Below are positions 3,551 to 18,619 of a stretch of 32,171 nt of DNA, one piece after another. Origin of the DNA: an uncultured Bacteroidales bacterium (GTDB lineage: Bacteria; Bacteroidota; Bacteroidia; Bacteroidales; UBA4417). Every line of letters begins with the position of its first letter. Position 1 is the first letter of the stretch. Location: the NCBI GenBank assembly GCA_903879715.1, contig CAIRMR010000182.1, forward strand, positions 1-32,171, written 5' to 3'. Made by a program: the position numbers and the translations under genes. Below the pieces are notes generated by a model, which saw only the letters and a list, made by a program, of their open reading frames with translations, had not been told where the DNA came from and ran no database searches.

Positions 3551-5062
3551 TCAAGGGTTTGGAGTTAAATTAGGGTTTCTGTCGCGCTCACTTTGTGGTA
3601 TTGGGCAAAGCATTTTATCTGCAGTGGCATTATAGTTGATTTTAATAGGGGCACTTAGTATGCCGCCATTACAGGTATATTTATACTCGTTCAGGTTGTT
3701 CATGGTTGAAACAAATACACCCAGACGAACAAGGTCGTCAAAACGCTGTGCTTCAAATGCAAGTTCCATCCTTCTTTCATTCAGAATTTTAGTTCTCAAA
3801 TCTTCTTTTGAAGAGGACGAAATGTCAGGAAGACCTGCACGATTCCGAATTTGATTCACGGCAGATATTGCACCGCTTAAGTTTCCTGTTTCATTCTGAG
3901 CTTCTGCTTTTAGAAGAATAATGTCAGCTAATCTCAATAAATAGAGGTGGTCGCCACCGTTCCATCCATTAGGGTGCTTTTCTTTATAATAATATGGAAC
4001 ATAGATTTCAGGATCATTGCATGGATTCCAGTTTTCATCAGCATATAAATTTTCATTCCGGAAAATGATATTGGCATCCTTGCGAACTGCATCATTTTGT
4101 GAATCATAGAGATTTACAAGGTCTTTTGATGGCACACAATAATTCTGGAAACCATCCCCAACTTCGTTAAACAAAGCAGTCCCCCAATTGGAAGTAACCC
4201 AGTTAGGATCTGTTTGAAATGCAATTTCGAGAATTGATTCATCATTCATATAATGGTCGCCGTCAAAAAGGTCAGCATAATTGGACATTAAACTATAAGC
4301 GGCGGCACTGTTAATAACTGCATCGCAGTAAGTTACTACTTTAGAATAATCGCGGTCGGATCGTTGTGCCCAAACTTTTGCCATCAGCGCGTTAGCAGCT
4401 CCTTTTGTTGCCCTTACTTTATTTTCTGTGTTATCGTCTGAAAATTTATCTGGTAGGTTGGCAATGGCAACTTCAAGGTCTTTGACAATTTGATCGTAAA
4501 CTTCTTTCTCAGATGAACGGGGAAGATTTGTTTTACTTGGATCAGTCGAATTTGAATGTAATTCGAGAGGAACACCACCCCAGGTTTTTACTAAGTGATA
4601 ATAGTGATAGGCACGGAGAAAACTTGCCTGCCCTATTGCTTTTTTCCTGACATCGTTAATATCTAAAGCAGGGTCATTTACCTGGCTTACCTTGTCAAGA
4701 ATAACGTTGCAACGAGCAATGCCCACATATAATTGTGCCCAATCGAATTCCATACGAATGTTACCAGATTGTATAGTCAGGTTATCATACGGTGTAGTTG
4801 AAATATCACCACCACCACCGGCGTATGCGTTATCCGAGCGCTCATCACCAAGCAGAATGTAATCCCATTCATAATATTCCTGATAAAAAACATTGTATGC
4901 TCCGGAAACTGCATTATTCACGTCCTGCGCAGTATTAAAAGCATTACCTGTATTCAGTGTTGAGGTTGGATGAAGGTCAAGAAAATCTTTCCCGCATGAG
5001 CTTACTAAAGCAACCAGCAATATGAAGCTCAATAATCGTATATAAAGTTCTATTTTTTTCAT
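3551..5062 (-). CDS. susD: SusD/RagB-family outer-membrane glycan-binding lipoprotein
   Basis: This 503-residue protein is the surface glycan-binding partner of the adjacent SusC-type transporter. It has a lipoprotein signal with lipobox LVSSC (Cys23), followed by GKDFLDLHPTSTL, the classical start of mature SusD homologues. The central region has TPR-like helices (ARCNVILDKV, ASFLRAYHYYHLVKTWGGVPL) and the C-terminal part has the SusD signature LLRLADIILLKAEAQNETG with LNERRMELAFEAQRFDDLVRLG. Length is typical (480-600). It starts 19 bp after the susC stop, so the two are co-transcribed, and the terminator at 3371-3407 follows. Substrate is inferred only from the neighbouring enzymes (GlcN/GlcNAc glycan). 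The symbol is used in the family sense. Confidence 0.95.
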   Translation of the reverse strand: MKKIELYIRLLSFILLVALVSSCGKDFLDLHPTSTLNTGNAFNTAQDVNNAVSGAYNVFYQEYYEWDYILLGDERSDNAYAGGGGDISTTPYDNLTIQSGNIRMEFDWAQLYVGIARCNVILDKVSQVNDPALDINDVRKKAIGQASFLRAYHYYHLVKTWGGVPLELHSNSTDPSKTNLPRSSEKEVYDQIVKDLEVAIANLPDKFSDDNTENKVRATKGAANALMAKVWAQRSDRDYSKVVTYCDAVINSAAAYSLMSNYADLFDGDHYMNDESILEIAFQTDPNWVTSNWGTALFNEVGDGFQNYCVPSKDLVNLYDSQNDAVRKDANIIFRNENLYADENWNPCNDPEIYVPYYYKEKHPNGWNGGDHLYLLRLADIILLKAEAQNETGNLSGAISAVNQIRNRAGLPDISSSSKEDLRTKILNERRMELAFEAQRFDDLVRLGVFVSTMNNLNEYKYTCNGGILSAPIKINYNATADKMLCPIPQSERDRNPNLTPNP

Positions 5063-5081
5063 TTCAGATCTGATTATTAAA

Positions 5082-8069
5082 TTAGAAAGTAAGGTTTAGA
5101 CCAAATATAAAGCTTTTAGATTGAGGGTATGAGCCAAAATCTACTCCAGGTGCAATGCCAACGCCAAAAGCGCTTACTTCAGGATCGAATCCGGTGTATT
5201 TGGTGAAAGTCAGGAGGTTTTCTCCGGTTACATACACAAAGAGTTTTTGGGTCCTCAATTTGTTGCAGATTGATTTGGGCAGGTCGTAGCCCAAAGTTGC
5301 AGATTTTAACCGGAGGTATGATCCATTCTCTACATATCGTGATGAAACATCTGAATTATGCATTAAATTATCTCTGTCAGATTTTGGCATGTCGGTGATA
5401 TCACCCGGATTTTCCCAACGATCCATAACGGTGGATAATTGGTTAACCGGATAGTACATGCCTTCAGTTACAATGCGGCTGGCATTGAAAATCTGGTTTC
5501 CCTGAACTCCCTGGAAAAAGAAAGAGAAGGTAAACTGTTTAAAAGTAAAGTTGTTGGTTAAACCGTAAGTGAAATCAGGATTAGCATTGCCAATAATGGT
5601 TTTGTCACCATCGCTTAAATCGCCTGATTCATCCAGATCTTTATATATCATGTTCCCTGTTTGAGGATCAACCCCCTCTGCAACATAGCCGTAAAATGTT
5701 CCAAGTGGTTCGCCTTCCATGGCAATAGCTGCAGCTGACCGGTTATCAATTTCTCCGCCAATAATTGGTACTCCCTTTTCGAGTTTGGTAATTTTATTGC
5801 GGTTGAACGAAATATTAAAATCGGTTGTCCATTTCAATTCGCCTACCAGGTTTTTTGAACTTACCTGGAATTCAAAACCTTTATTCCACATGGATCCAAC
5901 GTTTTTTGTAGCAAAGCTGGTTTGCCACCCCATCCCAACACTAAATGGAATTGGCGCATTAAGCAACATGTCGTTAGTGTTTTTAATATAATAATCAGCT
6001 GTAACAGTAATGCGGTTGTTTAATAAGGATGCATCGATACCAATATTGGTTTGTACAGTTTTCTCCCACCTCAGGTCGGCATTCTCCATTTGTGAGATTG
6101 CAGTTCCGGGTACGGTTTGGCCACCTATTAAATAAAACGCACTGGGACTTACTATACCCCATGAAGCATAATTGCCAATCTGGTCATTTCCTACCATACC
6201 CCAACCTGCCCTGATTTTAAGGTCGTTAACCAGATTGTTTGTTCCGTAGAATCCTTCCTTTGAAATTCTCCATCCAGCGGAAAACGAAGGGAAATACCCC
6301 CATTTATGATCGGCTCCAAAAACAGATGAGCCATCGGCCCGAAAATTGGCTGTTAATAGATACTTGTCATCGAATGCATAATTAAAACGTCCAATATAAG
6401 AAGCATTCGATTTTGCCGCTTCATCGTAACCGGCGCCTTTTTCTGTTCCCGCATTAATGGTCTGAACTGAAGGGCTTCCAAAACCTTTGGCTGTTGTTGA
6501 AACACTTTCGGCATTAATTTTTGATGCAATGTAGCCGGCCAGTAAACCAAAGTTATGTTTGTCGATTATTTTATTGTAGCTAAGAGTATTTTCGCTTATC
6601 CAGTAAAAACTTAAGGAACTGTTATAACCGGCAATCCCTTGGTAATTACGTCCTGCACGGCTTCTTAAAGGATCAATCCATGAATGGTAAGAATCATTAT
6701 TTTCTTCAATACCTAACATACTTTTAAATTTCAGGTCTTTCAGAATCGAAAACTCAGCATATGCGTTGCCGTTAAAACGGTAATTATTATACCCATGTTC
6801 ATCTGCAGTTAAAAGAGCAACCGGATTTTCAAGGTCGGCTAAAAATGGATCAGCAGTAAAAGTTCCATCAGGATTATAAATGTTTATAACTGGAGATGCC
6901 GTTAAAAATGAATTCCCCATACTCCACCGTCCTCCTTCACCAACACTTACATCATTCCATTTGTTGTAGGAAAGGCTTGTTCCAACTTTTAGAAAATTAC
7001 TGACTTTATGGTCCAGATTTCCCCTAAAGCTGTATTTTTTCATGCTGTTGGCAATGATAACGCCATCCTGATTAAAGAATGAACCGGAAAGGTAAAAACT
7101 TGTTTTATCATTACCTCCTGAAATACTAAGCTGCGTGCTTTTGGTTTCACCAGTTCTGAATACCTCATCCTGCCAGTTGTTATTAATTAAATTTCCATTA
7201 GTGCCCGAAGAGAGTGACCAGTCTCTTGAATAGCCCATTTCAGTCATCAAATCTTTGTATTGAATAGCATTCAAAACGTCCATTTTCTTCCCAACTTTTG
7301 CTATTCCATAGTACGAATTCAGACTTACCCGGGTACCTTTATCCGAGCCACGTTTGGTGGTAATCAGAACAACTCCATTTGCACCTGAAGCACCATAAAT
7401 TGCGGCGGCGGAGGCATCTTTTAGTATCGTAATATTTTCAATATCGCCTGGCTCAATCTGGTTCATTGAGGCTGTTGGCACCCCATCAACTATAAAAAGC
7501 GGACTACTGCCTGCCGTAATAGATGAAATACCCCTGATGGTGATGTTATACCCTGACTGAGGCTGACCTGATGGTTTACTGATTACAACGCCGGCAATCT
7601 TACCTTCGAGCGCATCTCCCATGTGGGATGCAGGTCTAGATTCGAATTCCTTGGATGAAACGGTTGCCACGGCTCCGGTCACATCCTTTTTCTTTTGTGT
7701 GCCATAACCCATAACTACAACTTCACTCAGCGTAGTAGCTGATTCGACAAGTGAGATATCAAATTGAGTTTTCCCGCCGACAGCAATTTCGGTAGTTTCA
7801 TAACCGACAAACGAAAACACAAGTGTTCCGTCCGAGGGTGCTGAAACGGAAAATTTACCGCTAATATCGGTTATTGTTCCGGTAGTAGTACCTTTTACAG
7901 CAACACTTACACCCGGTAAGGTTGTTCCATCAGTGGATCTAACTGTTCCTTTTACAATAATATTCTGAGCAAAAAGGACAGTTTGCACAATCAATAACAA
8001 AAACGCGGTAACATAAAGCGTCTTTGTCCTCAGGATTGGCACGAGATTAATTAGTAGCTTTCTTTTCAT
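5082..8069 (-). CDS. susC: SusC/RagA-family TonB-dependent outer-membrane transporter
   Basis: This 995-residue protein imports oligosaccharides across the outer membrane, powered by TonB. It has a signal peptide (about 1-35, ending LFAQ), a carboxypeptidase-like regulatory domain (about 37-108, VKGTVRSTDGTTLPGVSVAVKG), then SEVVVMGYGTQKKKDVTGAV, the standard SusC entry to the plug domain (to about 240, including DASAAAIYGASGANGVVLITTK). The 22-strand barrel fills the rest and ends on the terminal aromatic residue in GLNLTF. There is no N-terminal STN domain, so control by an anti-sigma/ECF pair is not expected. Instead the promoter carries the 21-bp-period operator shared with two other units of this locus. 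The leader is predicted to be about 120 nt. susD follows directly. Confidence 0.96.
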   Translation of the reverse strand: MKRKLLINLVPILRTKTLYVTAFLLLIVQTVLFAQNIIVKGTVRSTDGTTLPGVSVAVKGTTTGTITDISGKFSVSAPSDGTLVFSFVGYETTEIAVGGKTQFDISLVESATTLSEVVVMGYGTQKKKDVTGAVATVSSKEFESRPASHMGDALEGKIAGVVISKPSGQPQSGYNITIRGISSITAGSSPLFIVDGVPTASMNQIEPGDIENITILKDASAAAIYGASGANGVVLITTKRGSDKGTRVSLNSYYGIAKVGKKMDVLNAIQYKDLMTEMGYSRDWSLSSGTNGNLINNNWQDEVFRTGETKSTQLSISGGNDKTSFYLSGSFFNQDGVIIANSMKKYSFRGNLDHKVSNFLKVGTSLSYNKWNDVSVGEGGRWSMGNSFLTASPVINIYNPDGTFTADPFLADLENPVALLTADEHGYNNYRFNGNAYAEFSILKDLKFKSMLGIEENNDSYHSWIDPLRSRAGRNYQGIAGYNSSLSFYWISENTLSYNKIIDKHNFGLLAGYIASKINAESVSTTAKGFGSPSVQTINAGTEKGAGYDEAAKSNASYIGRFNYAFDDKYLLTANFRADGSSVFGADHKWGYFPSFSAGWRISKEGFYGTNNLVNDLKIRAGWGMVGNDQIGNYASWGIVSPSAFYLIGGQTVPGTAISQMENADLRWEKTVQTNIGIDASLLNNRITVTADYYIKNTNDMLLNAPIPFSVGMGWQTSFATKNVGSMWNKGFEFQVSSKNLVGELKWTTDFNISFNRNKITKLEKGVPIIGGEIDNRSAAAIAMEGEPLGTFYGYVAEGVDPQTGNMIYKDLDESGDLSDGDKTIIGNANPDFTYGLTNNFTFKQFTFSFFFQGVQGNQIFNASRIVTEGMYYPVNQLSTVMDRWENPGDITDMPKSDRDNLMHNSDVSSRYVENGSYLRLKSATLGYDLPKSICNKLRTQKLFVYVTGENLLTFTKYTGFDPEVSAFGVGIAPGVDFGSYPQSKSFIFGLNLTF

Positions 8070-8199
8070 TGGTTTGGGTTTTGGTTGGTCATGCTATTAT
8101 TGATTTGAATTGACGATTTGCCTTGAAATTAACAAGAGGCCCAGAAAGCCAACAGCTTTCATCCAGGGAAGATGATGTGATTTTATATTTTCAGTAAGC

Positions 8200-8264
8200 C
8201 AAAGATATATCTACAAAACTGGATAGATGTATGGAATTGCGTATTATATTCTTCGATTTGCGTA
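8200..8264 (-). promoter_or_regulatory. susC promoter with XylR/AraC-type direct-repeat operator
   Basis: Read on the minus strand: TACGCAAATC (8264-8255), 11 bp, TACGCAATTC (8243-8234), then CATAC (8233-8229), 21 bp, then TATCTTTG (8207-8200), a full TAnnTTTG -7 element. The repeats have a 21-bp period, two helical turns, as expected for tandem half-sites of an AraC-family protein. The same layout with the same spacings occurs at 15432-15496 and 17455-17519. The protein that binds is inferred to be the XylR-like regulator at 8539-9702. Confidence 0.75.
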
Positions 8265-8304
8265 AATTCGGTATTGGGGTACGGAAATCCTTTTGCTATT
8301 CAGG

Positions 8305-8538
8305 ATAAAGGGGCACTAAGCGGAGGGGCTCTGAGTGGAGCTGAAGTGCAAATGCCTTCGGCGTGCAAGGGTTTAAGGGTTCAAGAGTTCAGAAACCGGG
8401 CACTGAGCGGAGCCGAAGTGCAAGGGTTTAAAAGTTCAAATTTATTCCACTCCCATTTTCAGAGCCTGGAACCCTGAGTTTTGACCTTGGAATTTGAGTC
8501 CTGGAATTTGGATCTTGGAATTTTGAATCTTTGGGGTT
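8305..8538. repeat. Mosaic intergenic repeat between the regulator and susC
   Basis: Two related copies of a GGGCACTRAGCGGAG...GAAGTGCAA...GGGTTTAA..GTTCAA block are present (about 8310-8387 and 8398-8440). They are followed by repeats of the TTGGAATTTG type (about 8470-8538) that run up to the stop codon of the regulator gene. The CACTGAGCGGAGCCGAAGTG core is itself an imperfect inverted repeat (CACT...AGTG). No gene is visible. The block lies upstream of the susC operator and so is probably outside the susC transcript. Confidence 0.65.
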
Positions 8539-9702
8539 TTACTTTCCCGTCAGGTGCTTCTTCCTGTATTCAATCGGAGTGCATCCTTTTACCTGTTTAA
8601 ACTGGCGCGAGATATTTTTGCTGTTGTCAAAACCTGATTCGAGAGCGATCTCAAAGATGGTTTTATCTGTTTCCAGAAGCTTCTGGGCAAATTTCTGGAT
8701 TTGCAGGTTGTAGATGTATTTATAAACGCCGGTTCCGGTGGTTTCCTGGAAGCGTTTTTCAAGAGCCCGGCGCGAAAGCGGAACCTGTTTCAATATATCG
8801 GCTACGTTTATACGGTTATCAATATTCTGATGAATAAATTTAAGCGCTTTGGCAATATACTTGTCGTTTGCCGAAGCAATATCCGTAGATTGCCGGGTAA
8901 TTACCTGGGTAGGTTTTACAAGGATATCGTATTTTTCAGTTACCTGTTTTGTGATTAAAAGATCCATTAAGCGGGCGGCTTCGTAACCGCCTTTTTCCGT
9001 ATCCAGCTCGATGCTTGATAAAGGAGGGTCGGATAAATTGCAGGTCATCTTATCATTATCAACGCCCAAAACTGCAATTTCTTCCGGTATCTGGATTTTG
9101 GCGTGTTTGCACGCTTCGGTAATATGCTGGCCACGTTCGTCGTCGCAGGCCATAATTGCGATTGGTTTTGGCAACGACTGAAGCCACTGGCTCAGGGCCG
9201 AAGGTTTATAATGCCACAACTCCCGCGAAGGAGCCTGGTCATTGTCAAAATAATGAACTTCGAAACCCAGCGGATTCAGGTGATTGGCAAAGCCTTGCGC
9301 CCGCTCGCGCGACCAGACTATATTTTTAAAACCATAAAAGGCAAAATTCCGGAATCCTTTCGCAAGGAAATACTCAGCACCAATTTTCCCGGCTTCAAAA
9401 TACCCGCCTGTAATATTCGGAATTTCCGAAAAACGCTCCTTGAAATCTTCAACAATCAGGTGAATACCGGCATCAAGTACCTTTTTTACATCCAGGTTAT
9501 TATACAGCTGGGCTATAATTCCGTCGGCTTCCCACTCTCTGGCAAAATCCACGATGCCTTCCATACCAAGGGTTTCGCGGTAAAAAAGGGGCATGCGGCA
9601 GAATATCCAGGGACCATGTTCCTTGGAATATTTTACGATACCTTTCATCAGGTTCTGACCGTATTCTTCTGAAATATCGATCAGGAGGATAATTTTATGC
9701 AT
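8539..9702 (-). CDS. XylR-type transcriptional regulator (sugar-binding domain plus AraC HTH)
   Basis: This 387-residue protein has the E. coli XylR layout: a LacI/periplasmic-binding-protein-like effector domain (about 1-270, with GIVDFAREWEADGIIAQ, GAEYFLAKGFRNFAFYG, IAIMACDDERGQHITEACK and IPEEIAVLGVDND) followed by an AraC helix-turn-helix domain (about 283-383, with INVADILKQVPLSRRALEKRF and IFEIALESGFDNSKNISRQFK). It would bind a sugar ligand in the cytoplasm and activate transcription. It is the last gene of the ROK-GH2-SGNH-permease run, 73 bp after the permease. The three 21-bp-period operators at 8200-8264, 15432-15496 and 17455-17519 are its likely targets. Domain assignment is secure; ligand and regulon are inferred. 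Confidence 0.92.
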   Translation of the reverse strand: MHKIILLIDISEEYGQNLMKGIVKYSKEHGPWIFCRMPLFYRETLGMEGIVDFAREWEADGIIAQLYNNLDVKKVLDAGIHLIVEDFKERFSEIPNITGGYFEAGKIGAEYFLAKGFRNFAFYGFKNIVWSRERAQGFANHLNPLGFEVHYFDNDQAPSRELWHYKPSALSQWLQSLPKPIAIMACDDERGQHITEACKHAKIQIPEEIAVLGVDNDKMTCNLSDPPLSSIELDTEKGGYEAARLMDLLITKQVTEKYDILVKPTQVITRQSTDIASANDKYIAKALKFIHQNIDNRINVADILKQVPLSRRALEKRFQETTGTGVYKYIYNLQIQKFAQKLLETDKTIFEIALESGFDNSKNISRQFKQVKGCTPIEYRKKHLTGK

Positions 9703-9775
9703 TCTGTTTTTAGCTGGAAGCCAACTGCTAAATTAACTCAAAATTGTCGTAAAGGGAAGAATCACCTGGCTAACC

Positions 9776-11005
9776 CTAAAAAGTTTTATTGGTAATAAGC
9801 GGTTTTGCCCAGATACCGACACTAAAAATATATCCCAATGTGGCAAAAAGCAACAGCATTGAGAACCTAAGTCCGACAAACTCACCAATACCTCCAATGA
9901 TCAGGGGAACCACGGCGCCGCCTAAAATTGCTGTACATAATATTCCCGAAAAAGATCCGTGGTGAGCCGGAACCGAATTCAGCGCAAGCGAGAAAATAAC
10001 CGACCACATTACTGAAAGGAAAAATCCGGTAATCGGGAAAGCATATATGGAAACAACTGCGGGACCAAACAAGGCAAAAGCAAGTGAAATAATAGCCCCG
10101 GTAGTAAAAGTAATCAGTACTTTACGGCTGTCAATAAGTTTCAGTAACAGCAGTCCGAGTAAACAGCCAACAGTAAGCAATCCCCAGAAATATGAAATAA
10201 CGTCAGCTCCTGTAGTGGCCGGATCGGTGCCATGATAGGTTTGCAGAAATTTGGAAGTCCAGTTGGCGATTCCCTGCTCGGTACCAACGTAAGCGAATAT
10301 CCCGATAAAGAATAAAATTACCTGTTTGTTATGAAGCAGTTCCCTGAAAGCCTGTCCGGTTTCAATTTTTTCGTCTTCCTGCAATTCAACTTTCGGGAAT
10401 TTAACAATCCGGATTATAACAATAATGGCCAGGACTACCAACGCAAAAACCCAGTACAACGAGGCCCATTCAAGATTGGCCGGAACAATAGGATTGAGCA
10501 GACGAATAAAGAATGAAGTATTGCCGGTATGTACATTATGCACCAGGTAACTGTATAACTGAGGACTCAGAAAAGATGCCAGTCCAAATACCAGCTGCGC
10601 CAGAACCGAATAAAAGGCAAAATTTTCGCCCCCTCCCGAATGACGTAATAACGGGTTAATGGCAACCTGTAACATCGCCATACCAATTCCAATGATAAAA
10701 AGAGATGGCAGTGCAACTGAGAATCTTGGAAATAGCGCAAACAAAATCGCTCCAACGAACGCCAGTACGAAAGCAGAAATCATCACAGTTTTTTCTGAAT
10801 ATTTTTCAATCAGCAGACCTGCCGGCACCGACATAATTCCGTAAGCAATAAAAAATGAGAATGGTAAAAAGCCGGCTAATCCTATACCAAGACTGAAACT
10901 TTTTATAATATCAGGAATGATAGGCCCGAGAATATTGGTAAGAAATGAGATCACGAAGAAAATAAGCATGATAAGCATGATCATTACGGGGCTTTTTGTC
11001 TTCAT
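9776..11005 (-). CDS. Sugar MFS transporter, FucP/NagP (FHS) family
   Basis: This 409-residue, roughly 12-helix inner-membrane permease belongs to the fucose:H+ symporter family, which includes FucP and the Bacteroidota GlcNAc permease NagP. Family-type segments are FLTNILGPIIPDIIKSF in helix 1, FSFFIAYGIMSVPAGLLIEK in helix 2, a long first half with MLQVAINPLL, and the C-terminal GSFSGILCTAILGGAVVPLIIGGIGE. It would bring released monosaccharide from periplasm to cytoplasm. It follows the SGNH hydrolase by 113 bp and precedes the regulator by 73 bp, with no operator of its own, so it probably belongs to the ROK-promoter transcript. GlcNAc or GlcN as substrate is inferred from the neighbouring enzymes. 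Confidence 0.88.
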   Translation of the reverse strand: MKTKSPVMIMLIMLIFFVISFLTNILGPIIPDIIKSFSLGIGLAGFLPFSFFIAYGIMSVPAGLLIEKYSEKTVMISAFVLAFVGAILFALFPRFSVALPSLFIIGIGMAMLQVAINPLLRHSGGGENFAFYSVLAQLVFGLASFLSPQLYSYLVHNVHTGNTSFFIRLLNPIVPANLEWASLYWVFALVVLAIIVIIRIVKFPKVELQEDEKIETGQAFRELLHNKQVILFFIGIFAYVGTEQGIANWTSKFLQTYHGTDPATTGADVISYFWGLLTVGCLLGLLLLKLIDSRKVLITFTTGAIISLAFALFGPAVVSIYAFPITGFFLSVMWSVIFSLALNSVPAHHGSFSGILCTAILGGAVVPLIIGGIGEFVGLRFSMLLLFATLGYIFSVGIWAKPLITNKTF

Positions 11006-11118
11006 GTTAGTTGAGTTTTAATTTGAATCAGATTTAATTTTCGAATTGTTGGTTTTTACTTTTTGTGAAATTACAATTAAGTCCTGTTCAGCAGATTTAA
11101 CTTCATGTTGATCCGTAA

Positions 11119-11781
11119 TTATTTGTCCAGGTATGGCTGAATTATCGTTTTCCAAATGGCATACCCTTTCGGATTCATATGAAGATTATCCTCCAGGAAA
11201 AGTTCATCCCGGTAATTTCCCTGAGCATCCAGCATCCGGTGATACACATCGATAAATCCGGCGTTCTTTTCCTTTTTCAGGAATCTGGCAATTTCCTTAT
11301 TCGTTTCGATCACTTTATCTTTGATATTCAGTCGTTTTGGACTTGCCTTAATGGATATATAATCAATTTCTGCATCTGGCAGATTCAACCGGATAATCCC
11401 ATACAAGGTTTTGAAACGTTTTACAACCTCTGCCGGAGTCACAGTATCGGAATAGGCCAGGTCATTTTCGCCGCAATAAATTAACACCTGCTTTGGTTGA
11501 TAAGGAATAATTATATCATAGGAATAGCGTATCAGGTCCAACAGGGTTGAAGCCCCAAATGCCCGGTTAACTATCGGATAGCCCGGGAAATATTCATTAA
11601 CATCTTTCCACTTTGTAAACGAAGAACTTCCGATAAACAGGATTGGATGTGCCGGAGCAGGATGTACGGAATCCAGTTTTTTGAAGGCCACAATGTCGTT
11701 CCAGAAAGGTGGCGCTGTTTGCGCAAAACCTGCTGATAGTATTGCTAAATATAGAATGGATGATAAAATAACCTTCTTCAT
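11119..11781 (-). CDS. Secreted SGNH/GDSL-type hydrolase (esterase or deacetylase)
   Basis: This 220-residue protein has a signal peptide (about 1-20, ending GFAQ) and a complete SGNH fold signature: block I LFIGSSSFTKW with nucleophile Ser53, Gly76 in RAFGAST, Asn106 in GENDL, and Asp198-x-x-His201 in LEDNLHMNPKGY. Family members with FIGSSS-type block I are acyl or acetyl esterases, many acting on carbohydrates. It is 10 bp downstream of the GH2 gene, so translation is probably coupled to it. In this locus it may remove O-acetyl or other acyl groups from the glycan. N-deacetylation is possible but not typical of the family. Confidence 0.85.
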   Translation of the reverse strand: MKKVILSSILYLAILSAGFAQTAPPFWNDIVAFKKLDSVHPAPAHPILFIGSSSFTKWKDVNEYFPGYPIVNRAFGASTLLDLIRYSYDIIIPYQPKQVLIYCGENDLAYSDTVTPAEVVKRFKTLYGIIRLNLPDAEIDYISIKASPKRLNIKDKVIETNKEIARFLKKEKNAGFIDVYHRMLDAQGNYRDELFLEDNLHMNPKGYAIWKTIIQPYLDK

Positions 11782-11791
11782 AAGTACTTCC

Positions 11792-14419
11792 CTATTTTAC
11801 TGATATTTTCTGGTACGCCACATTCCATCCGGAAAGTATTAATTCGGGTTTAATTCCTTTAAGTGCAGCTTTTGGAACGGAACACTTTATATCCCTTTTC
11901 TCGCCAGGTAACAAGCTGAAATAATTATCGTCCCAGAAAACAGGGCTTATAACTCCTCCATATTCATCCGTTAAAATGAGCGTGTTAAAAAATGCAATCT
12001 TACCTGTTGGATTTGAGAGGTGAGTTTGAATCAGTACATCTGAATCCTTTTCCGTTAATTCATAATTCATTTTTACAACAGATACCGGCATTTTTCCTAA
12101 TGACGTGAAATCAGTGTAAGATTTCATTGGCGTATATGCCCAGGTGGTTTTATCCCACTCCAGTTCATCGGGTTTGTCCGAAAGCCAGTAAAAATTTCCG
12201 GCAACACGGCTTCCGTTCGGATTCTTTAATTTCAGATCAATAAATATAGTTCCTTTGTACGTATCAAGCTGTAAGATTTTTACCGATGAGTTTGGCGGGA
12301 CATTAATATTGATTTCCTTGTTAGACAATAAATCTGAATTCACATCTGTTACATTTAGCACTGCTACCAAGTTAGTAACATCCTGCCGGCAATCATTTAC
12401 AGCGTAAACCGAATTATTTGCATAGTTATAAATCAGCTGAACCGGCTGACAGGCATTTCGTGCTGCATAATACGCGGCTGTTGGTTTCAGGTAATAATCA
12501 TACAATTGCCAGTACATCGAAGGCCATGCTGAATTTAACATCCACTGAATGATACCTGTGGTTTTGGGGATGTTTACACGGAAAGCTTCAAACATGGCTC
12601 TCATGGCTTCGTAACTCTGTGCATCTGATTTCAGAAGATAGTCTTCCAAATTAGCAGGTTTTCCATACCGCCCGTCCAAGGCATTATTAAAAACATCCAT
12701 TTTATTGAATGCCTCTTTGGAATGTGTACAGTGGTAATTCCAGAGTTGGTTGGGAGGCCAGAGTTTATCAGCCGGAAGCATTTTTTTCAACGATTCAAGT
12801 ATCGGAACCTGGGGGCCCGGACCTGTTTCGGTGTTAAATCCGAATGCACCGCCGTTTATCGTGTCGGTATACCAGTAATTGGGCGAAACATATTCGTAAG
12901 GGCCGTTCATTTTTACGCCGCTCGGGCCGCTGATTTTACATACCCTTGTGCCTGCAGTTGACAGATAAGGCCTGTTATCAAGGCTTTTAAACAGTTCGGC
13001 GTATTTAATTTCAAGTTCCGGTTTCGGGCATTTATCGCTTCCAACCATCCAAACGAAAATGCCTGGATGGTTTCGTAACCAAAGAATCTGGTCGCGGAAC
13101 GAATTGGTTATCAAAGTCATTTCCTGTTCTGTCTGAATTCCGCCAAATTCATCGCAGGGTTTTCCCAGGTATTCGTCCCATTCCCACTGGCAACTCCAGC
13201 CAACCATTGAAAGGATGCCATATTTGTCGCACAGATCATAAATATCCTCAGTGTTTCCCCAGATGCTTTCGAGGCGGATGGTATTCAGATTCATGTGCTT
13301 TACGTATTGTATCTGGGTTTCAATGCTTTCAATACTGTCGCGTAAAAAAATATCATCAGTCCAGCCGGCGCCTTTTATCAGTACTTCCTTGCCATTCAGT
13401 TTAAACCCTTTGTGTCCGGCAGCATTGGTGTACATTTCAATTTCCCTGATGCCGAAACTTATCTTTTCAGCATCGGAAACCTGATCTTTTATTTCAAAGC
13501 GGAGATCAAGCTGGTACAACTCAGGCAAACCCAGGTTATTACACCACCAAAGACGTGGATTTTTCAGTTTTAATGCCGGTATCTGTTCTGGCGTCAGCGT
13601 TAAATCAATAGTTTGGCCCGGATTTATTGTGAAAGGGTATTCAAATTCCAGGTTCTCAATTTTCCCTTTCAGTACTCCGCTTACAGGTTTTTTATTCTTG
13701 TTTTTCAGACTGGTTTTTATTGTCAGTGAAGCCTCATCAAGAGTAACTGTATTTACTTTTGATTCTACATAGGTGTTGTTGATACTTACATCGCCGGCGA
13801 TTTTTAGATACACTTCGCGCCAGATTCCCATATTTTCATCGGCTGGCTTTGGATTCCAGTCGACAAATCCAATATTGAAATCACCAGGCTGAGCCCGGAA
13901 AATTTCAACAGCCAGTATATTGTTTTTCTTTTTAAGGAAATCAGTGATATCAAATTCAAACCTGCGGAATGTTCCGTAAACGCTGTCGCGCGAAGCAATC
14001 AGCTTGCCGTTCAGCCAGATGTTGGCGTAGTAATTAATTCCATCAAAATGAAGGGTAATATGCTGGCCTTTTTTTAGTTGGGGAATTTCAAATTGCCTGA
14101 TGTACCACCACGAATCATCAAATTGTTTCTTATCGATATTTTTATAATTATCCCCGATAAAAATGTCTTTATACTGCCCGTTTCGGGTAAGTACTCCCAT
14201 TGCTGTTGAAGGAACGGACGTTTGTAACCAGTCCGATGCAACGATTTCTTTTGTAGATAATTCCGGCCCTTTCAGATTTATTTTACCCGATGGCTGAACG
14301 AACCAGTTTTCTTTTAGAAGTAATTTCCCTGAATTGTCGTTTGATGTTTGAGCAAACAAACCTGTGGGTAGCAGCAGGGTTGATATAATGCCGATGGTTA
14401 GCAGCAATTCTTTTAACAT
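11792..14419 (-). CDS. GH2 glycoside hydrolase resembling exo-beta-D-glucosaminidase
   Basis: This 875-residue secreted enzyme has a signal peptide (about 1-23, ending LFAQ). It is followed by the GH2 sugar-binding domain (about 35-210), a beta-sandwich (about 215-330), the TIM barrel (about 335-660) and C-terminal beta domains. In the barrel the acid/base position is Asp462 (VWMVGSDKCPKPELE) rather than the Glu of the usual GH2 NE motif, and the nucleophile is Glu531 (FGFNTETGPG). An Asp acid/base within GSD is the mark of GH2 exo-beta-D-glucosaminidases such as CsxA (Asp469/Glu541, similar spacing), which release GlcN from the non-reducing end of chitosan. Beta-mannosidase is the main alternative. 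It is 117 bp after the ROK gene and 10 bp before the SGNH gene. Confidence 0.85.
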   Translation of the reverse strand: MLKELLLTIGIISTLLLPTGLFAQTSNDNSGKLLLKENWFVQPSGKINLKGPELSTKEIVASDWLQTSVPSTAMGVLTRNGQYKDIFIGDNYKNIDKKQFDDSWWYIRQFEIPQLKKGQHITLHFDGINYYANIWLNGKLIASRDSVYGTFRRFEFDITDFLKKKNNILAVEIFRAQPGDFNIGFVDWNPKPADENMGIWREVYLKIAGDVSINNTYVESKVNTVTLDEASLTIKTSLKNKNKKPVSGVLKGKIENLEFEYPFTINPGQTIDLTLTPEQIPALKLKNPRLWWCNNLGLPELYQLDLRFEIKDQVSDAEKISFGIREIEMYTNAAGHKGFKLNGKEVLIKGAGWTDDIFLRDSIESIETQIQYVKHMNLNTIRLESIWGNTEDIYDLCDKYGILSMVGWSCQWEWDEYLGKPCDEFGGIQTEQEMTLITNSFRDQILWLRNHPGIFVWMVGSDKCPKPELEIKYAELFKSLDNRPYLSTAGTRVCKISGPSGVKMNGPYEYVSPNYWYTDTINGGAFGFNTETGPGPQVPILESLKKMLPADKLWPPNQLWNYHCTHSKEAFNKMDVFNNALDGRYGKPANLEDYLLKSDAQSYEAMRAMFEAFRVNIPKTTGIIQWMLNSAWPSMYWQLYDYYLKPTAAYYAARNACQPVQLIYNYANNSVYAVNDCRQDVTNLVAVLNVTDVNSDLLSNKEININVPPNSSVKILQLDTYKGTIFIDLKLKNPNGSRVAGNFYWLSDKPDELEWDKTTWAYTPMKSYTDFTSLGKMPVSVVKMNYELTEKDSDVLIQTHLSNPTGKIAFFNTLILTDEYGGVISPVFWDDNYFSLLPGEKRDIKCSVPKAALKGIKPELILSGWNVAYQKISVK

Positions 14420-14531
14420 GGCCTGAACTTTTAAGTTTACAGTTTGAAGCTTTATCGGATAATGAAATGAATGAGGATGATTTTGGGGATGCAGATTGTT
14501 AAGATGGTTGAGGATTCAACTTCCTGAATTA

Positions 14532-14539
14532 CAAATCTA
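14532..14539 (-). promoter_or_regulatory. Possible internal -7 element before the GH2 gene
   Basis: The minus strand reads TAGATTTG, a full TAnnTTTG match, overlapping the ROK stop codon by three bases and about 113 nt before the GH2 start. No 21-bp-period operator accompanies it, so it may be chance or a weak constitutive internal promoter. Confidence 0.3.
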
Positions 14540-15370
14540 ATCATTATTAACCAAAGCAGCGGCCCCGAGAAGAGCTATATTATCTGCTTGTGACCTTAGG
14601 ATTTGCAGTTTTTTAATGGTTTCGGGAAATTGAAAATCGCTCAGTGATTCATGCATCGATTCTTTGAAAAAAGTGAATGCTTTGGCAATCGAACCTCCAA
14701 GCACAATGGCTTCCGGATCATAGGTATAAACAACAGCTTTTAACACATTCCCCAGGTGAGTTCCATATTCCTTCCACAATTGCAACGCCTTTTGTGATCC
14801 TTGCAACGCCTCATTATGCGCATCTAATGCCGTAATTGAATTTATGGTTTCAAAAAAAGTACTGCTGGTATAAAACTCAAAGTTATTGTCGAGGTAAGGT
14901 AATGAGCCTATTTCGCCTGCACCGCAATTATTTCCTGAATACAGCGTATTATTTATGATGATTCCGGCTCCCAGTCCTGTGCCAAGCGCTATTGCCACAA
15001 ACGAAGAAAAAGATTTCGCCTGCCCGTAACGATGTTCGCCTAGCGCAAAACAGTTTACATCGTTGTTGATGCTAACAGGAATATTAAATTCTGTTTCCAG
15101 GATTTTTTTGAGTTCAACTTTTTGCCAGGAAGGTATATTTACTACATCGTAAACAATTCCGTTTTCGATATCTACAACAGATGGAACTCCAATACCAATT
15201 CCTTTAACTTCGGGCCTGATTAACGGGGCGATAACAGAAATCAGCTGCGAAATTGTTTTCCGGAGCGATTCCTTATCAGTCAGTAAAACCTGTTTCACCA
15301 ACGTCAGCACACCATCCTCAATTAATCCGGCCCTGATATTTGTGCCTCCTAAATCAACACCGATATACAT
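14537..15370 (-). CDS. ROK-family sugar kinase lacking the zinc motif
   Basis: This 277-residue protein starts with the ROK phosphate motif VDLGGTNIRAGL and has the catalytic Asp104 in INNDVNCFALGEHRYG and the ATP-binding ALGTGLGAGIIIN. It would phosphorylate the imported hexose, plausibly GlcNAc or GlcN here. The usual ROK zinc site (His of GH plus CxCGxxGCxE) is absent: the His position is Ser156 (GAGEIGSLPYL) and the following segment (NNFEFYTSSTFFE) has no cysteine. It is therefore a zinc-less ROK subtype. There is no N-terminal DNA-binding domain, so it is a kinase rather than a NagC/Mlc-type repressor. It is the first gene of a probable five-gene transcript from the promoter at 15432-15496. 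Confidence 0.9.
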   Translation of the reverse strand: MYIGVDLGGTNIRAGLIEDGVLTLVKQVLLTDKESLRKTISQLISVIAPLIRPEVKGIGIGVPSVVDIENGIVYDVVNIPSWQKVELKKILETEFNIPVSINNDVNCFALGEHRYGQAKSFSSFVAIALGTGLGAGIIINNTLYSGNNCGAGEIGSLPYLDNNFEFYTSSTFFETINSITALDAHNEALQGSQKALQLWKEYGTHLGNVLKAVVYTYDPEAIVLGGSIAKAFTFFKESMHESLSDFQFPETIKKLQILRSQADNIALLGAAALVNND

Positions 15371-15431
15371 CTTAATAAAGTTTTATGTAAAAGAATATGA
15401 TTCGTTTTGTATGAATTCAATGATAATAATG

Positions 15432-15496
15432 CAAAGCTATGGCACAATAGCAGTCGAAGCGTAGGAATATGCGTATTTAAAACCTCGATTTGCGCA
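15432..15496 (-). promoter_or_regulatory. ROK-operon promoter with XylR/AraC-type direct-repeat operator
   Basis: Read on the minus strand: TGCGCAAATC (15496-15487), 11 bp, TACGCATATT (15475-15466), CCTAC (15465-15461), 21 bp, TAGCTTTG (15439-15432). Period and spacing to the -7 element are identical to the copies before susC and the GH20 gene. Predicted transcription start is near 15425, giving a leader of about 55 nt. Confidence 0.78.
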
Positions 15497-15603
15497 AAAT
15501 GGTTAAGAGAGATTGGTTAAATGGAAAATGGAAAATATTTTGTGTTAAGTAACCTGGTTTTCGTGCCGGGTTCCTTGTTCCTTCCAGAGGAAATATGTGT
15601 CAT

Positions 15604-15644
15604 TCAATTATCTGACTTCAGGTTAGCTGTCTGAAAATAATTGA
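15604..15644. repeat. Inverted repeat downstream of the GH20 gene
   Basis: TCAATTAT (15604-15611) and ATAATTGA (15637-15644) form a perfect 8-bp outer stem, with an inner TCAG/CTGA pairing. It lies about 115 nt past the GH20 stop on the minus strand. No T-tract follows, so a terminator role is uncertain. Confidence 0.4.
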
Positions 15645-15659
15645 TCTTGAGAACAATAG

Positions 15660-15722
15660 AAGTAAGAACTATCGCCTTGTCGCTCCTCGCCCCATCGCCC
15701 CATCGCTCCCCGCCCTATCAGA
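15660..15722. repeat. C-rich low-complexity repeat (TCGCCCC type)
   Basis: Repeats of a unit close to ATCGCCCC / CTCGCCCC lie just past the GH20 stop codon. It is the reverse-strand form of the GGGGCGA-type stretches at 3233, 23715 and 24860. Together with the operator and inverted repeat this fills the 387-bp gap between the ROK and GH20 genes; no gene is visible there. Confidence 0.6.
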
Positions 15723-15757
15723 AGGCACAAACTTCCTAAAACAATAACCCCGACGGT

Positions 15758-17404
15758 TTAATCAGCCCAACCAGGCCTGCGATAACGTATGCTTTTTGAA
15801 TTCAGGTAATTGAAATGTGGTTTCATACGGACCTGGAATGAATACCAATCCCTGCCGGGGCTCCAGCACACTTCGGCAAGAGCCTGTAAATTCGGGAAAA
15901 CATGCTTTTCGAAAATGGCTTCTGAAGGTATTTCCTCAGTCCATACGCAGCCTTGCATTCCCTGGACTTTATTCAGAACATTTGCCGGAAACAGATCAGA
16001 GGCGTTATACTTAAACAGATTTTGCAAATTCTCATCGTTACTGGGACTCGAAAGGTAAAAGTGCGACCAGGGTGTCAGAATTATAGGATTTCCATTTGCT
16101 GCGGATCGTTCCGGGGAATCTGTAACCCAGGCACGCCAGTACATCATGGTTATTTTGCTGTCAATATTTCCGTCAATCACATCATCCCAGGCTATTACGG
16201 TTTTACCTTTTGACTGTAAGTGTTCCTGAATCTTTTTCACAAAATAATTCTGGATTTCGTTCAGGTTAGTCATCCCGTTTTCTTTCATAAAATCCTGGCA
16301 TACAGGTGCGGCGGCCCAGGTATCTTTTTCAACTTCATCGCAGCCAATATGCACGACATTTGATGGGAAAAGTTCAATTATTTCGTCCCATACTTTGTAT
16401 GAAAAATCCATAACATCGGGATTACAAGGACATATCGGGAACGAGAATTCGGTTCCCCAACCGGCTGAATCAACACACGAAAGCTGAGGATATGCACGGA
16501 TAGCAGCCGACATATGGCCCGGCATATCAATTTCGGGAATTACATCGATATAATTGGCTGAAGCGTAGGTGACAATTTCACGGATATCCTGCTTTGTATA
16601 AAATCCGCCATAAACTTTTTGCCCGTTTACTTCCTTAATAAAGCGAGGGTCGATGGTATAATTAATATCTGATTTGGCTAATTCCATACAGGTGGAATCC
16701 ATACTGTTAAAGCTGCGCCAGGCGCCAATCTGGGTAAGTAAAGGAAACTGATCAATTTCTACACGCCAGCCCTGGTCGTCAGTCAGGTGGAGCTGAAGTT
16801 TGCTGAATTTGTAATAAGCCAGCCAGTCAATAAGCTTTAAAATATACTCTTTGGTAAAAAAATGCCGCGAAACATCAAGGTGGAATCCGCGCCAGGCATA
16901 TTTAGGCTGATCTTTTATAGTCATCAGGCGGAGGTTGAAGGATTCTGCCTTCTGATCCGAAGCGGAATTCCAAATCATCTGCCTCATGGATTGTGCCGCA
17001 TAAAATGCACCTGCCGGACTTTGAGCCTTTATCACAACTCCTTTTGCGGTGATTGCTATCTGATATGCATTTGAATCCAGCGAGTTGTCGGGAATGAACT
17101 GGATATTTGTTTTGCCATTCGGTAAACTGTTTTTAACAACTGTTGAATTCAGAGCTTGTGAAAGCGCATTTTCAACAATCAAAACAGCAGCCTGAAACTG
17201 TGAGTTGTTTACCAGCACAATATCCTTATCAATTGTAAGGCTACCTTCAGCCAGGTCAACATTGAGCGGAAGCGGAATAATTCCATGCGCATGAATCGTG
17301 GTTTGAGCCTGGGGATTCTCGCCGGTCTTTTTGCAGGAAGGAAACAGGAATATGCCTATCAGTATAAATGCAATACCAATTTTATCCACGCAGCAGGTCT
17401 TCAT
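15758..17404 (-). CDS. GH20 beta-N-acetylhexosaminidase lipoprotein
   Basis: This enzyme (548 residues from the ATG at 17404) cleaves terminal beta-GlcNAc/GalNAc by substrate-assisted catalysis. It has a lipoprotein signal, MKTCCVDKIGIAFILIGIFL then FPSC (lipobox Cys24), a GH20b domain (about 45-165) and the GH20 barrel (about 170-520) with RGFHLDVSRHF, LHLTDDQGWR, PEIDMPGH and the catalytic Asp356-Glu357 pair in HIGCDEVEKDTW. The frame is open to a TTG at 17452, but the promoter -7 element at 17455-17462 would start the transcript near 17448, so translation must begin at the ATG at 17413 or 17404. I choose 17404 for the cleaner signal peptide. It has its own operator and is probably monocistronic. 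Confidence 0.95.
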   Translation of the reverse strand: MKTCCVDKIGIAFILIGIFLFPSCKKTGENPQAQTTIHAHGIIPLPLNVDLAEGSLTIDKDIVLVNNSQFQAAVLIVENALSQALNSTVVKNSLPNGKTNIQFIPDNSLDSNAYQIAITAKGVVIKAQSPAGAFYAAQSMRQMIWNSASDQKAESFNLRLMTIKDQPKYAWRGFHLDVSRHFFTKEYILKLIDWLAYYKFSKLQLHLTDDQGWRVEIDQFPLLTQIGAWRSFNSMDSTCMELAKSDINYTIDPRFIKEVNGQKVYGGFYTKQDIREIVTYASANYIDVIPEIDMPGHMSAAIRAYPQLSCVDSAGWGTEFSFPICPCNPDVMDFSYKVWDEIIELFPSNVVHIGCDEVEKDTWAAAPVCQDFMKENGMTNLNEIQNYFVKKIQEHLQSKGKTVIAWDDVIDGNIDSKITMMYWRAWVTDSPERSAANGNPIILTPWSHFYLSSPSNDENLQNLFKYNASDLFPANVLNKVQGMQGCVWTEEIPSEAIFEKHVFPNLQALAEVCWSPGRDWYSFQVRMKPHFNYLNSKSIRYRRPGWAD

Positions 17405-17454
17405 ATATAACATATTTTCATTGATTGATTCCTGAATATTTCTGAATATCAATA

Positions 17455-17519
17455 CAAAGCTAATCTGTAAAACAAATAAAGATGTAGGGATATGCGCATT
17501 AAAAACTTCGATATGCGCA
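17455..17519 (-). promoter_or_regulatory. GH20-gene promoter with perfect 21-bp-period direct-repeat operator
   Basis: Read on the minus strand, TGCGCATATC occurs twice without mismatch (17519-17510 and 17498-17489), separated by 11 bp. CCTAC (17488-17484) follows, then 21 bp, then TAGCTTTG (17462-17455). This is the best of the three copies. The proximal half-site ends near where the -33 contact would be, as in class II activation by AraC-family proteins. Confidence 0.8.
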
Positions 17520-17599
17520 AAATGGATTCGAAAGGAACTGGAAATATAGAAATAGGCTTAAACGGTATAGCTCAGATTTCAACAATAAAGCCAGGAAAG

Positions 17600-17716: not shown

Positions 17717-18619
17717 CTATATAAATCTTCTTTTTACAAAATCCTTCAACCGGGCAAGGGTTTCCTGTTTGGTTTCCCACTCTGCAGAATGGTATTTCTG
17801 TAAAATCCAGTTTGCTTCATCCAGATTAACCGCTTTGTTGATCCGGTGAATAGCTTCTTCATACTGTACAGTGCTGCTTCCAAACAAATCGCTGATAAAG
17901 CTGAACTTGTCGTTAAGCCCTATTCCGGTTATCAGGTTGGCAATAGGCTGAAACTGTACACGCGAACCCATAAAGCCCTGTGGCTGGGCCGAAGCCATGG
18001 TCTCACTTAACGATTTATTGCCTGTGTTGAACTTATCAGCCAGCATGGCCGGAGCAGATTCCGGATTAACAGAATGTATATTTTCAGAAGTTTCCTTTTC
18101 GGGTGTTTGCTCTTCCTGAAATTCAGATAGCGGCTGTACCTGGTTTTCAAACACCGGTTCAGGAGCAGATTCAGCTTCCGGGATTAATTCAGCAACTGCT
18201 TCAGCCTGTAAAATAATTTCAGGTTCGGATTCTGGTTTGTATTCCTGCTCAACTGCATAGTCCAGCCCTTTTTCGGTAACAGGTTCGGCTTCAAGTTTTG
18301 GCTGAGGTGGCGTTTGTGCCGGATCCGGCGAATTGAAATGTTCTTTGCCGTAATGTGTTGGAATGGATGCAGCTGCAGGATGAGAATCTTCAGAGACCGC
18401 AGTATTTACCCTTACTTCAGGCTTGGCTGCAGTATCCTGAAGCGTGAGATTTATCTGGCCGATATTTTTAAAAGTATCATAAAGCTTACGCAGATCATCG
18501 AGCATCAGGTCAAGTTCCACTTGCGAAATGGTGCCTGCCGGAACGTATAATTGATTGTACCTCGATACTACTTTCCGGATCAGATCGTCGGCATCGCGGG
18601 TTAAACGGTTTAAGTCCAT
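17717..18619 (-). CDS. Bacteroidota protein of unknown function with acidic central linker
   Basis: This 300-residue protein has no recognised catalytic motif. Residues 1-66 are predicted helical (two helices, DDLIRKVVSRYNQLYVPAG and VELDLMLDDLRKLYDTF). Residues about 67-215 are rich in Glu, Pro, Ala and Ser and probably disordered. The last 80 residues (IANLITGIGLNDKFSFISDLF, then AIHRINKAVNLDEANWILQKY, ending DFVKRRFI) resemble a conserved helical domain I recall from uncharacterised Bacteroidota proteins. There is no signal peptide or membrane segment, so it is cytoplasmic. It is monocistronic, with a heptamer repeat array (18699-18866) 80 bp upstream. The ORF is well supported by composition and length; function is unknown. 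Confidence 0.8.
   Translation of the reverse strand: MDLNRLTRDADDLIRKVVSRYNQLYVPAGTISQVELDLMLDDLRKLYDTFKNIGQINLTLQDTAAKPEVRVNTAVSEDSHPAAASIPTHYGKEHFNSPDPAQTPPQPKLEAEPVTEKGLDYAVEQEYKPESEPEIILQAEAVAELIPEAESAPEPVFENQVQPLSEFQEEQTPEKETSENIHSVNPESAPAMLADKFNTGNKSLSETMASAQPQGFMGSRVQFQPIANLITGIGLNDKFSFISDLFGSSTVQYEEAIHRINKAVNLDEANWILQKYHSAEWETKQETLARLKDFVKRRFI

Follow-up and report, generated by a model that had tools for sequence, protein, structure and literature searches.

We analyzed a window of 32,171 nucleotides, the whole stretch of DNA under study, which is contig C182 (CAIRMR010000182.1) in the 6.07-Mb assembly of an uncultured Bacteroidales bacterium (GCA_903879715.1). Its minus strand carries a polysaccharide utilization locus (PUL) that comprises susD, susC, a XylR-type regulator, an MFS permease, an SGNH esterase, a GH2 enzyme, a ROK kinase and a GH20 enzyme. 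Three elements of identical layout precede susC, the ROK gene and the GH20 gene, and we consider it very likely that they are operators of the regulator encoded within the PUL, which would act as an amino-sugar-responsive activator. This assignment of regulator to operator is well supported by comparative evidence, namely the specificity of the motif within the genome, its co-occurrence with the regulator in related genomes and the conservation of its geometry.

Three probable operators with a fixed layout

Each of the three minus-strand sites consists of a direct repeat with a period of 21 bp, followed by CMTAC, a spacer of exactly 21 bp and TAnnTTTG (Table 1). In the susC site, TACGCAAATC (8264-8255) and TACGCAATTC (8243-8234) are followed by CATAC (8233-8229), 21 bp and TATCTTTG (8207-8200). 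A 34-base pattern allowing up to three mismatches matched only these three places in the genome, all of them at the PUL, and none in the backwards control, which excludes a chance origin of the three sites. The first-pass annotation had described the architecture and positions of the sites, the identity of the two 10-mers in the GH20 copy and the constancy of the spacings in spite of differing spacer bases. All of this was confirmed on the three sites, whose spacers differ more from one another than their operator bases do, and the motif proved not to be scattered over the genome. The extent of the motif had been understated, as conservation spans about 39 bp including G14, A15 and G17.

A first matrix started from the three sites of the window and was then re-trained on the window plus 13 loci covering all ten regulator-positive genomes of the genus. 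It retrieved 23 genus sites at 42-59.6 bits; the next match, at 13.7 bits, overlapped a true site on the opposite strand, and the top score in a Markov control of 744 kb was 4.6 bits. G14, A15 and G17, which follow repeat 1, show no variation among the 23 genus sites; in the wider set of 44 sites, they are retained in 44, 43 and 43, respectively.

The regulator shows the Pfam domains Peripla_BP_3 (residues 109-273) and HTH_18 (306-381), and its best solved relative is E. coli XylR (4fe4/4fe7, E about 2e-45), matched over the full length. The earlier XylR-like assignment of 8539-9702 is thereby borne out, the protein being a LacI-AraC fusion. It is the sole full-length LacI-AraC match in the window genome at E<=1e-8, the four other matching proteins being covered over one domain each. 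A LacI-like ligand domain followed by an AraC helix-turn-helix (HTH), together with a predicted direct-repeat operator that, to judge from sequence geometry, adjoins the promoter, places the system in the XylR-type class. Histidine kinase and receiver domains, which would mark a hybrid two-component system, are absent from the regulator according to Pfam. E. coli XylR proper has xylose isomerase and kinase targets, whereas the sites in the window genome lie only before susC, ROK and GH20.

At E<=1e-60 the regulator was found in 10 of 60 genomes (window genome included), all within the genus. Named relatives that are 63-79% identical occur beyond the genus genomes and are assigned by title to Bacteroidales, Chitinophagaceae, Flavobacteriaceae (Flavobacterium, Lutibacter) and Spirosoma. 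In the window and in ten other loci (L029, L032, L034, L040, L056, L064, L067, L069, L072 and L141), the regulator is the last gene of a run on one strand that begins with an operator; L041 looks similar, with 1.2 kb unmapped. In Spirosoma telluris (L078, 10001-11168), the regulator gene seems to be split across several frames.

Co-occurrence of the regulator and the motif

With up to two mismatches, the pattern matched 11 of 149 genomes, the window's included: 8 of the 10 regulator-positive genomes of the genus, none of its 6 regulator-negative genomes and 3 of the 133 genomes outside it. These last three (G071, G108 and G129) were discarded as chance matches, with matrix scores of 5.2, none above 2, and 8.0, respectively, and no homologue of the window PUL proteins in the matched stretches at E<=1e-20. 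With a sequence-only model built on the 23 sites, the best match had E<=2.2e-9 in every one of the 10 regulator-positive genomes of the genus; the 6 regulator-negative ones, two of which are only 64% and 74% complete, had no match at E<=0.01 (best 0.044). The motif is thus found beside orthologous loci and accompanies regulator orthologues in the genus (10/10 vs 0/6), points that the first-pass annotation had proposed to check. Over 45 genomes, the same model reached E<=1e-4 in 22 of 39 that are regulator-positive and in none of 6 that are regulator-negative. Among 392 genomes of the phylum, only the window genome and G074 reached this threshold; both are regulator-positive, and the regulator of G074 is 48% identical to that of the window. 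Model matches at E 0.0009-0.01 in 12 genomes of the phylum sample (about 4 expected, with a rough E-value) were treated as chance and left uninspected.

The six regulator-negative genomes of the genus also lack the PUL GH2 gene at E<=1e-60, so that the shared absence of regulator and motif says little on its own. More telling are G003 and G008 (the latter 72% complete), which retain the regulator and the motif without a GH2 match; there, the operator precedes a GH92 gene and susC genes 31-35% identical to that of the window.

We scanned 150 Spirosomaceae genomes, 68 of which have the regulator at E<=1e-100, with a pattern specific to this clade that had been built from the sites of Spirosoma genomes bearing the regulator. 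The pattern was present in 13 genomes (backwards control 0): 12 of the 68 regulator-positive vs 1 of the 82 regulator-negative ones (Fisher p=3.4e-4). Five of the 12 double-positive genomes are those the pattern came from, and upon their removal the figures were 7/63 vs 1/82 (Fisher p=0.012). In 11 of the 12 double-positive genomes, one contig holds both the motif and the regulator, 9-51 kb apart; in all seven outside the pattern source, the distance on one contig is 9-43 kb.

Several observations weigh against the pairing of this regulator with these sites. Five of the 39 regulator-positive genomes have no model match at E<=0.1 (G447, G541, G544, G549 and G551; a local matrix scan of G447 gave a 14-bit site before ROK), and the surroundings of the regulator in L057, L058, G120 and G338 yielded no site. 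In the phylum sample, the regulator is present at E<=1e-100 in 6 of the 392 genomes, just two of which, one being the window's own, have a model match at E<=1e-4. The strict clade pattern is missing from 56 of the 68 regulator-positive Spirosomaceae, and in place of the motif a palindrome-like element of another kind is present at the GH20-ROK-MFS-regulator operons of Spirosoma. Conversely, the complete one-contig genome G685 has a site (C1:6204278-6204314) and no regulator match at E<=1e-20, which perhaps reflects loss of the regulator or the action of another one. Finally, the genus genomes were the source of all training sites, and related genomes do not provide independent evidence.

The sites might therefore belong to another, unlinked amino-sugar regulator, the XylR-type gene merely traveling with the PUL. 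The regulator-positive genomes without a detectable site and the Spirosoma-type site of G685 speak for this possibility, as does the joint lack of regulator and GH2 in the genus, which keeps the co-absence from singling out the regulator. We nevertheless regard it as unlikely, given that G003 and G008 keep regulator and motif before GH92 and other susC genes, that motif and regulator share a contig in nearly all double-positive Spirosomaceae, and that a 21-bp direct repeat suits an AraC-type dimer.

Operator geometry and promoter

An operator-only matrix of 39 bp, promoter excluded, was built from 20 distinct genus sites and run with a cut-off of 11.5 bits on the window and 61 partly overlapping loci of regulator-bearing genomes, duplicate matches from overlaps being dropped. 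It yielded 54 distinct matches, vs none in a 3.08-Mb Markov control. In 52 of them, TAnnTTT[GA] starts exactly 21 bp (44 matches) or 22 bp (8 matches) past the operator; at offsets 3, 8, 9 and 34 it occurs once each, always alongside one at 21, against a background of 0.00097 per position. The same holds for the 32 matches outside the training set, 30 of which have a -7 box (22 at 21 bp, 8 at 22 bp). The two matches without this box are L029 +5806, where a true site on the opposite strand overlaps with itself, and L072 -19360, which carries TAACTTCG. Two weak sites under the cut-off (L061 and L062; 5.7 and 10.0 bits) have TAGCTTTA 21 bp downstream and were not counted.

In the 44 sites with a 21-bp spacer, the spacer holds at most 0.57 bits per position vs up to 2.3 in the operator, and the -7 box is also information-rich. 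The promoter consensus has TTTG at -33; no TTTG consensus was present at that position in these 44 sites. With TAnnTTTG placed at -12 to -5 (PMC9723704), repeats 1 and 2 occupy -68 to -61 and -47 to -40, respectively, and CNTAC covers -38 to -34. Identity between the repeats is highest at an offset of 21 (0.71), and 0.41 is the most reached at any other offset between 8 and 27.

LacI-type sensors usually belong to repressors that are relieved by sugar, and the LacI-type sensor domain of the regulator could be taken to mean that it binds these sites as such a repressor. This is rather improbable, slightly more so than an unlinked regulator, in view of the position of the sites, which stop about 21 bp short of the -7 box as class-II activator sites do, with no TTTG at -33; in addition, PMC12125979 describes E. 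coli XylR and Vibrio XylRA, which share the architecture of this regulator, as activators. Nor does it seem at all probable that each repeat is a palindrome (TTTGCGCAAA) for a conventional repressor dimer, making two tandem sites: repeat 1 is indeed near-palindromic (pairs 4-9 in 47/52 and pairs 3-10 in 42/52), but repeat 2 is not (pair 26-29 in 16/52), a GARG block is present after repeat 1 alone, and the distance between the repeats is fixed. Least credible of all is that one promoter was recently duplicated to give all three copies, with spacing fixed by copying and not by selection, since, although the ROK-type and GH20-type operators of the window are very alike, information-poor spacers separate two information-rich elements across 44 sites, spacers diverge more than operators within the window, and the layout recurs in loci titled Flavobacteriaceae and in G074 with its 48% identical regulator.

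Genes under the operator and the likely substrate

The first gene after the 54 matches is susC in 22 cases (including L040:8891, assigned by a tblastn map), ROK in 11, an extracytoplasmic function (ECF) sigma factor gene in 8 (one checked by Pfam, seven assigned by length and N-terminus), nagB-PIG-L in 7 (Pfam check for three, length and N-terminus for the other four), GH20 in 2, GH92 in 2 (one checked by Pfam, one assigned by its N-terminus at a contig end) and a gluconate dehydrogenase subunit in 1; the remaining match is the self-overlap, without a target. The susC homologues under the operator are 31-39% identical to that of the window, and the sites extend to loci titled Flavobacteriaceae and Spirosoma. 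Of the amino-sugar targets predicted in the first-pass annotation, nagB was recovered at seven sites, outside the genus, and nagA was not seen among the targets.

Table 1. Predicted features of the PUL and its operators in the window
Feature	Positions	Strand	Remarks
Operator upstream of susC	8229..8267	(-)	39 bp: repeat 1, GAAG, repeat 2, CATAC; 53.2 bits
-7 box of susC, TATCTTTG	8200..8207	(-)	21 bp past operator; transcription start predicted near 8195
Operator upstream of ROK-GH2-SGNH-MFS-regulator gene run	15461..15499	(-)	57.6 bits
-7 box of ROK, TAGCTTTG	15432..15439	(-)	21 bp past operator
Operator upstream of GH20	17484..17522	(-)	Both 10-mers identical; 58.3 bits
-7 box of GH20, TAGCTTTG	17455..17462	(-)	21 bp past operator
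SusD	3551..5062	(-)	
SusC	5082..8069	(-)	Without STN domain
XylR-type regulator	8539..9702	(-)	LacI-like sensor domain + AraC HTH; Pfam; 4fe4/4fe7, E about 2e-45
MFS sugar permease	9776..11005	(-)	gluP/fucP/NagP group; scores under curated cut-offs
SGNH/GDSL esterase	11119..11781	(-)	
GH2	11792..14419	(-)	Nearest solved relative exo-beta-D-glucosaminidase 2vzs, E 2e-143
ROK sugar kinase	14537..15370	(-)	
GH20 beta-N-acetylhexosaminidase	15758..17413	(-)	Start re-assigned to ATG 17413

The GH2 protein is nearest to the exo-beta-D-glucosaminidase 2vzs and matches beta-mannosidase at E 8e-37 only, and the GH20 protein matches beta-N-acetylhexosaminidases; for these reasons, the substrate of the PUL is probably chitosan or a mixed oligosaccharide of glucosamine (GlcN) and N-acetylglucosamine (GlcNAc). 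The longest GH20 open reading frame (ORF) opens at TTG 17452, inside the predicted promoter-to-start stretch. Translation probably starts at ATG 17413 instead, because the transcript is predicted from the -7 box to begin near 17450.

Pfam found no STN domain in SusC, in agreement with the first-pass annotation. Its further statement, that the locus has neither a hybrid two-component system nor an ECF/anti-sigma pair, stands for the nine PUL-region proteins scanned, among which no hybrid system, ECF sigma or anti-sigma factor was detected, the other ORFs of the window being unscanned; the combination of ECF sigma/anti-sigma pair and STN-type SusC is accordingly not seen in this set. A known leader RNA is not supported, as an Rfam scan of the window at gathering thresholds gave no match. 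An E. coli-type sigma-70 promoter scan performed at chance level and was not used.

Some further loci carry related arrangements. In two relatives, at L031 (4464) and L130 (6981 and 12528), operator-headed susCD pairs unlike that of the window adjoin hyp17717-tdk, near the place GH20 has in the window. In L041, a second GH20 gene has upstream of it, at 18267, a degenerate sequence resembling the operator (-2.1 bits) and, next, TAAGTTTG; this is possibly a decayed site.

Discussion

Taken together, these results suggest a sequence of events in which the cytoplasmic LacI-like domain would sense an amino sugar released by GH20 and GH2, be it glucosamine, GlcNAc or a phosphate of either. The AraC domains of a regulator dimer would next occupy the direct repeat of 21-bp period (about -68 to -40), CNTAC (-38 to -34) would stand in for the -33 box, and RNA polymerase would be recruited to TAnnTTTG. 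The GH20 gene, susCD and the ROK-GH2-SGNH-MFS-regulator run would thus be switched on and, being a member of that run, the regulator gene would be activated by its own product.

Parts of this design are known from other systems. According to PMC12125979, E. coli XylR and Vibrio XylRA likewise join a LacI-like sensor to an AraC HTH, have direct-repeat operators and act as one-component, sugar-responsive activators of a catabolic locus, as we propose for the window regulator. They differ in belonging to xylose regulons of Gammaproteobacteria with AT-rich repeats, whereas the system described here belongs to a PUL of Bacteroidota and combines amino-sugar genes with RCGCAWAT repeats and a TAnnTTTG promoter. 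The hybrid two-component systems of Bacteroides PULs also use AraC-type DNA binding and direct repeats averaging 21 bp at susCD promoters; in contrast to the window regulator, they sense in the periplasm through a fused histidine kinase and receiver (PMC3878776). According to the same source, the NanR regulon of Bacteroides also controls genes for sialic acid and GlcNAc, but through a ROK-family protein and not a LacI-AraC fusion. Bacteroides RhaR is likewise an AraC-family activator with a direct repeat of 21-bp period, in this case for a rhamnose regulon (PMC3870299). The 21-bp repeat design itself is therefore already known for AraC-type regulators. Hence, the description of this mode of PUL control as less common in the first-pass annotation seems fair as regards the type of sensor, but does not extend to the 21-bp direct repeat, which is also the average for the Bacteroides hybrid systems (PMC3878776). 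In a full-text literature search, with most subscription journals outside its coverage, neither this regulator or operator nor XylR-type control of PULs in Bacteroidota was found among the listed matches.

The control of amino-sugar PULs, here probably one for chitosan or chito-oligosaccharides, is usually credited to membrane hybrid sensors or sigma/anti-sigma pairs, and the present results provide a testable regulator-operator pair for such loci. The nearly fixed distance between operator and -7 box despite large divergence makes this a clean system for the study of activators on Bacteroidota promoters without a -33 box, and the operator can serve as a search key for the regulon in other genomes.

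It is tempting to speculate, albeit tentatively and with the odds against it, that the regulon spans several Bacteroidota orders, in which one cytoplasmic amino-sugar sensor would have captured varied uptake systems through the same rigid operator-promoter module; in Spirosoma, with an ECF sigma gene beside susCD, the LacI-AraC sensor might control the PUL through transcription of the sigma factor. In seven Spirosoma loci (L131-L137), the site is followed by an ECF-type gene of 178-181 aa and then by a susC gene, for instance at 10903-11442 in L131 (site 11664) and 4495-5037 in L132 (site 4241). The site of L145 (G396) precedes a like ECF-type gene, where the mapping stops. A Pfam scan of nine of the ten ORFs of 120 aa or more in L131 found no anti-sigma factor.

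As regards the palindrome-like element of Spirosoma, nine loci have a sequence like TAGTACT-N6-AGTACTA upstream of GH20, just after a TATCTTTA box (e.g. L059, about 5060-5110). It is imperfect in several of them and looks like the site of another regulator. Beside one Spirosoma GH20 operon lies a gene resembling a glucosamine N-acetyltransferase (NagX model, 202 bits, under the cut-off of 480).

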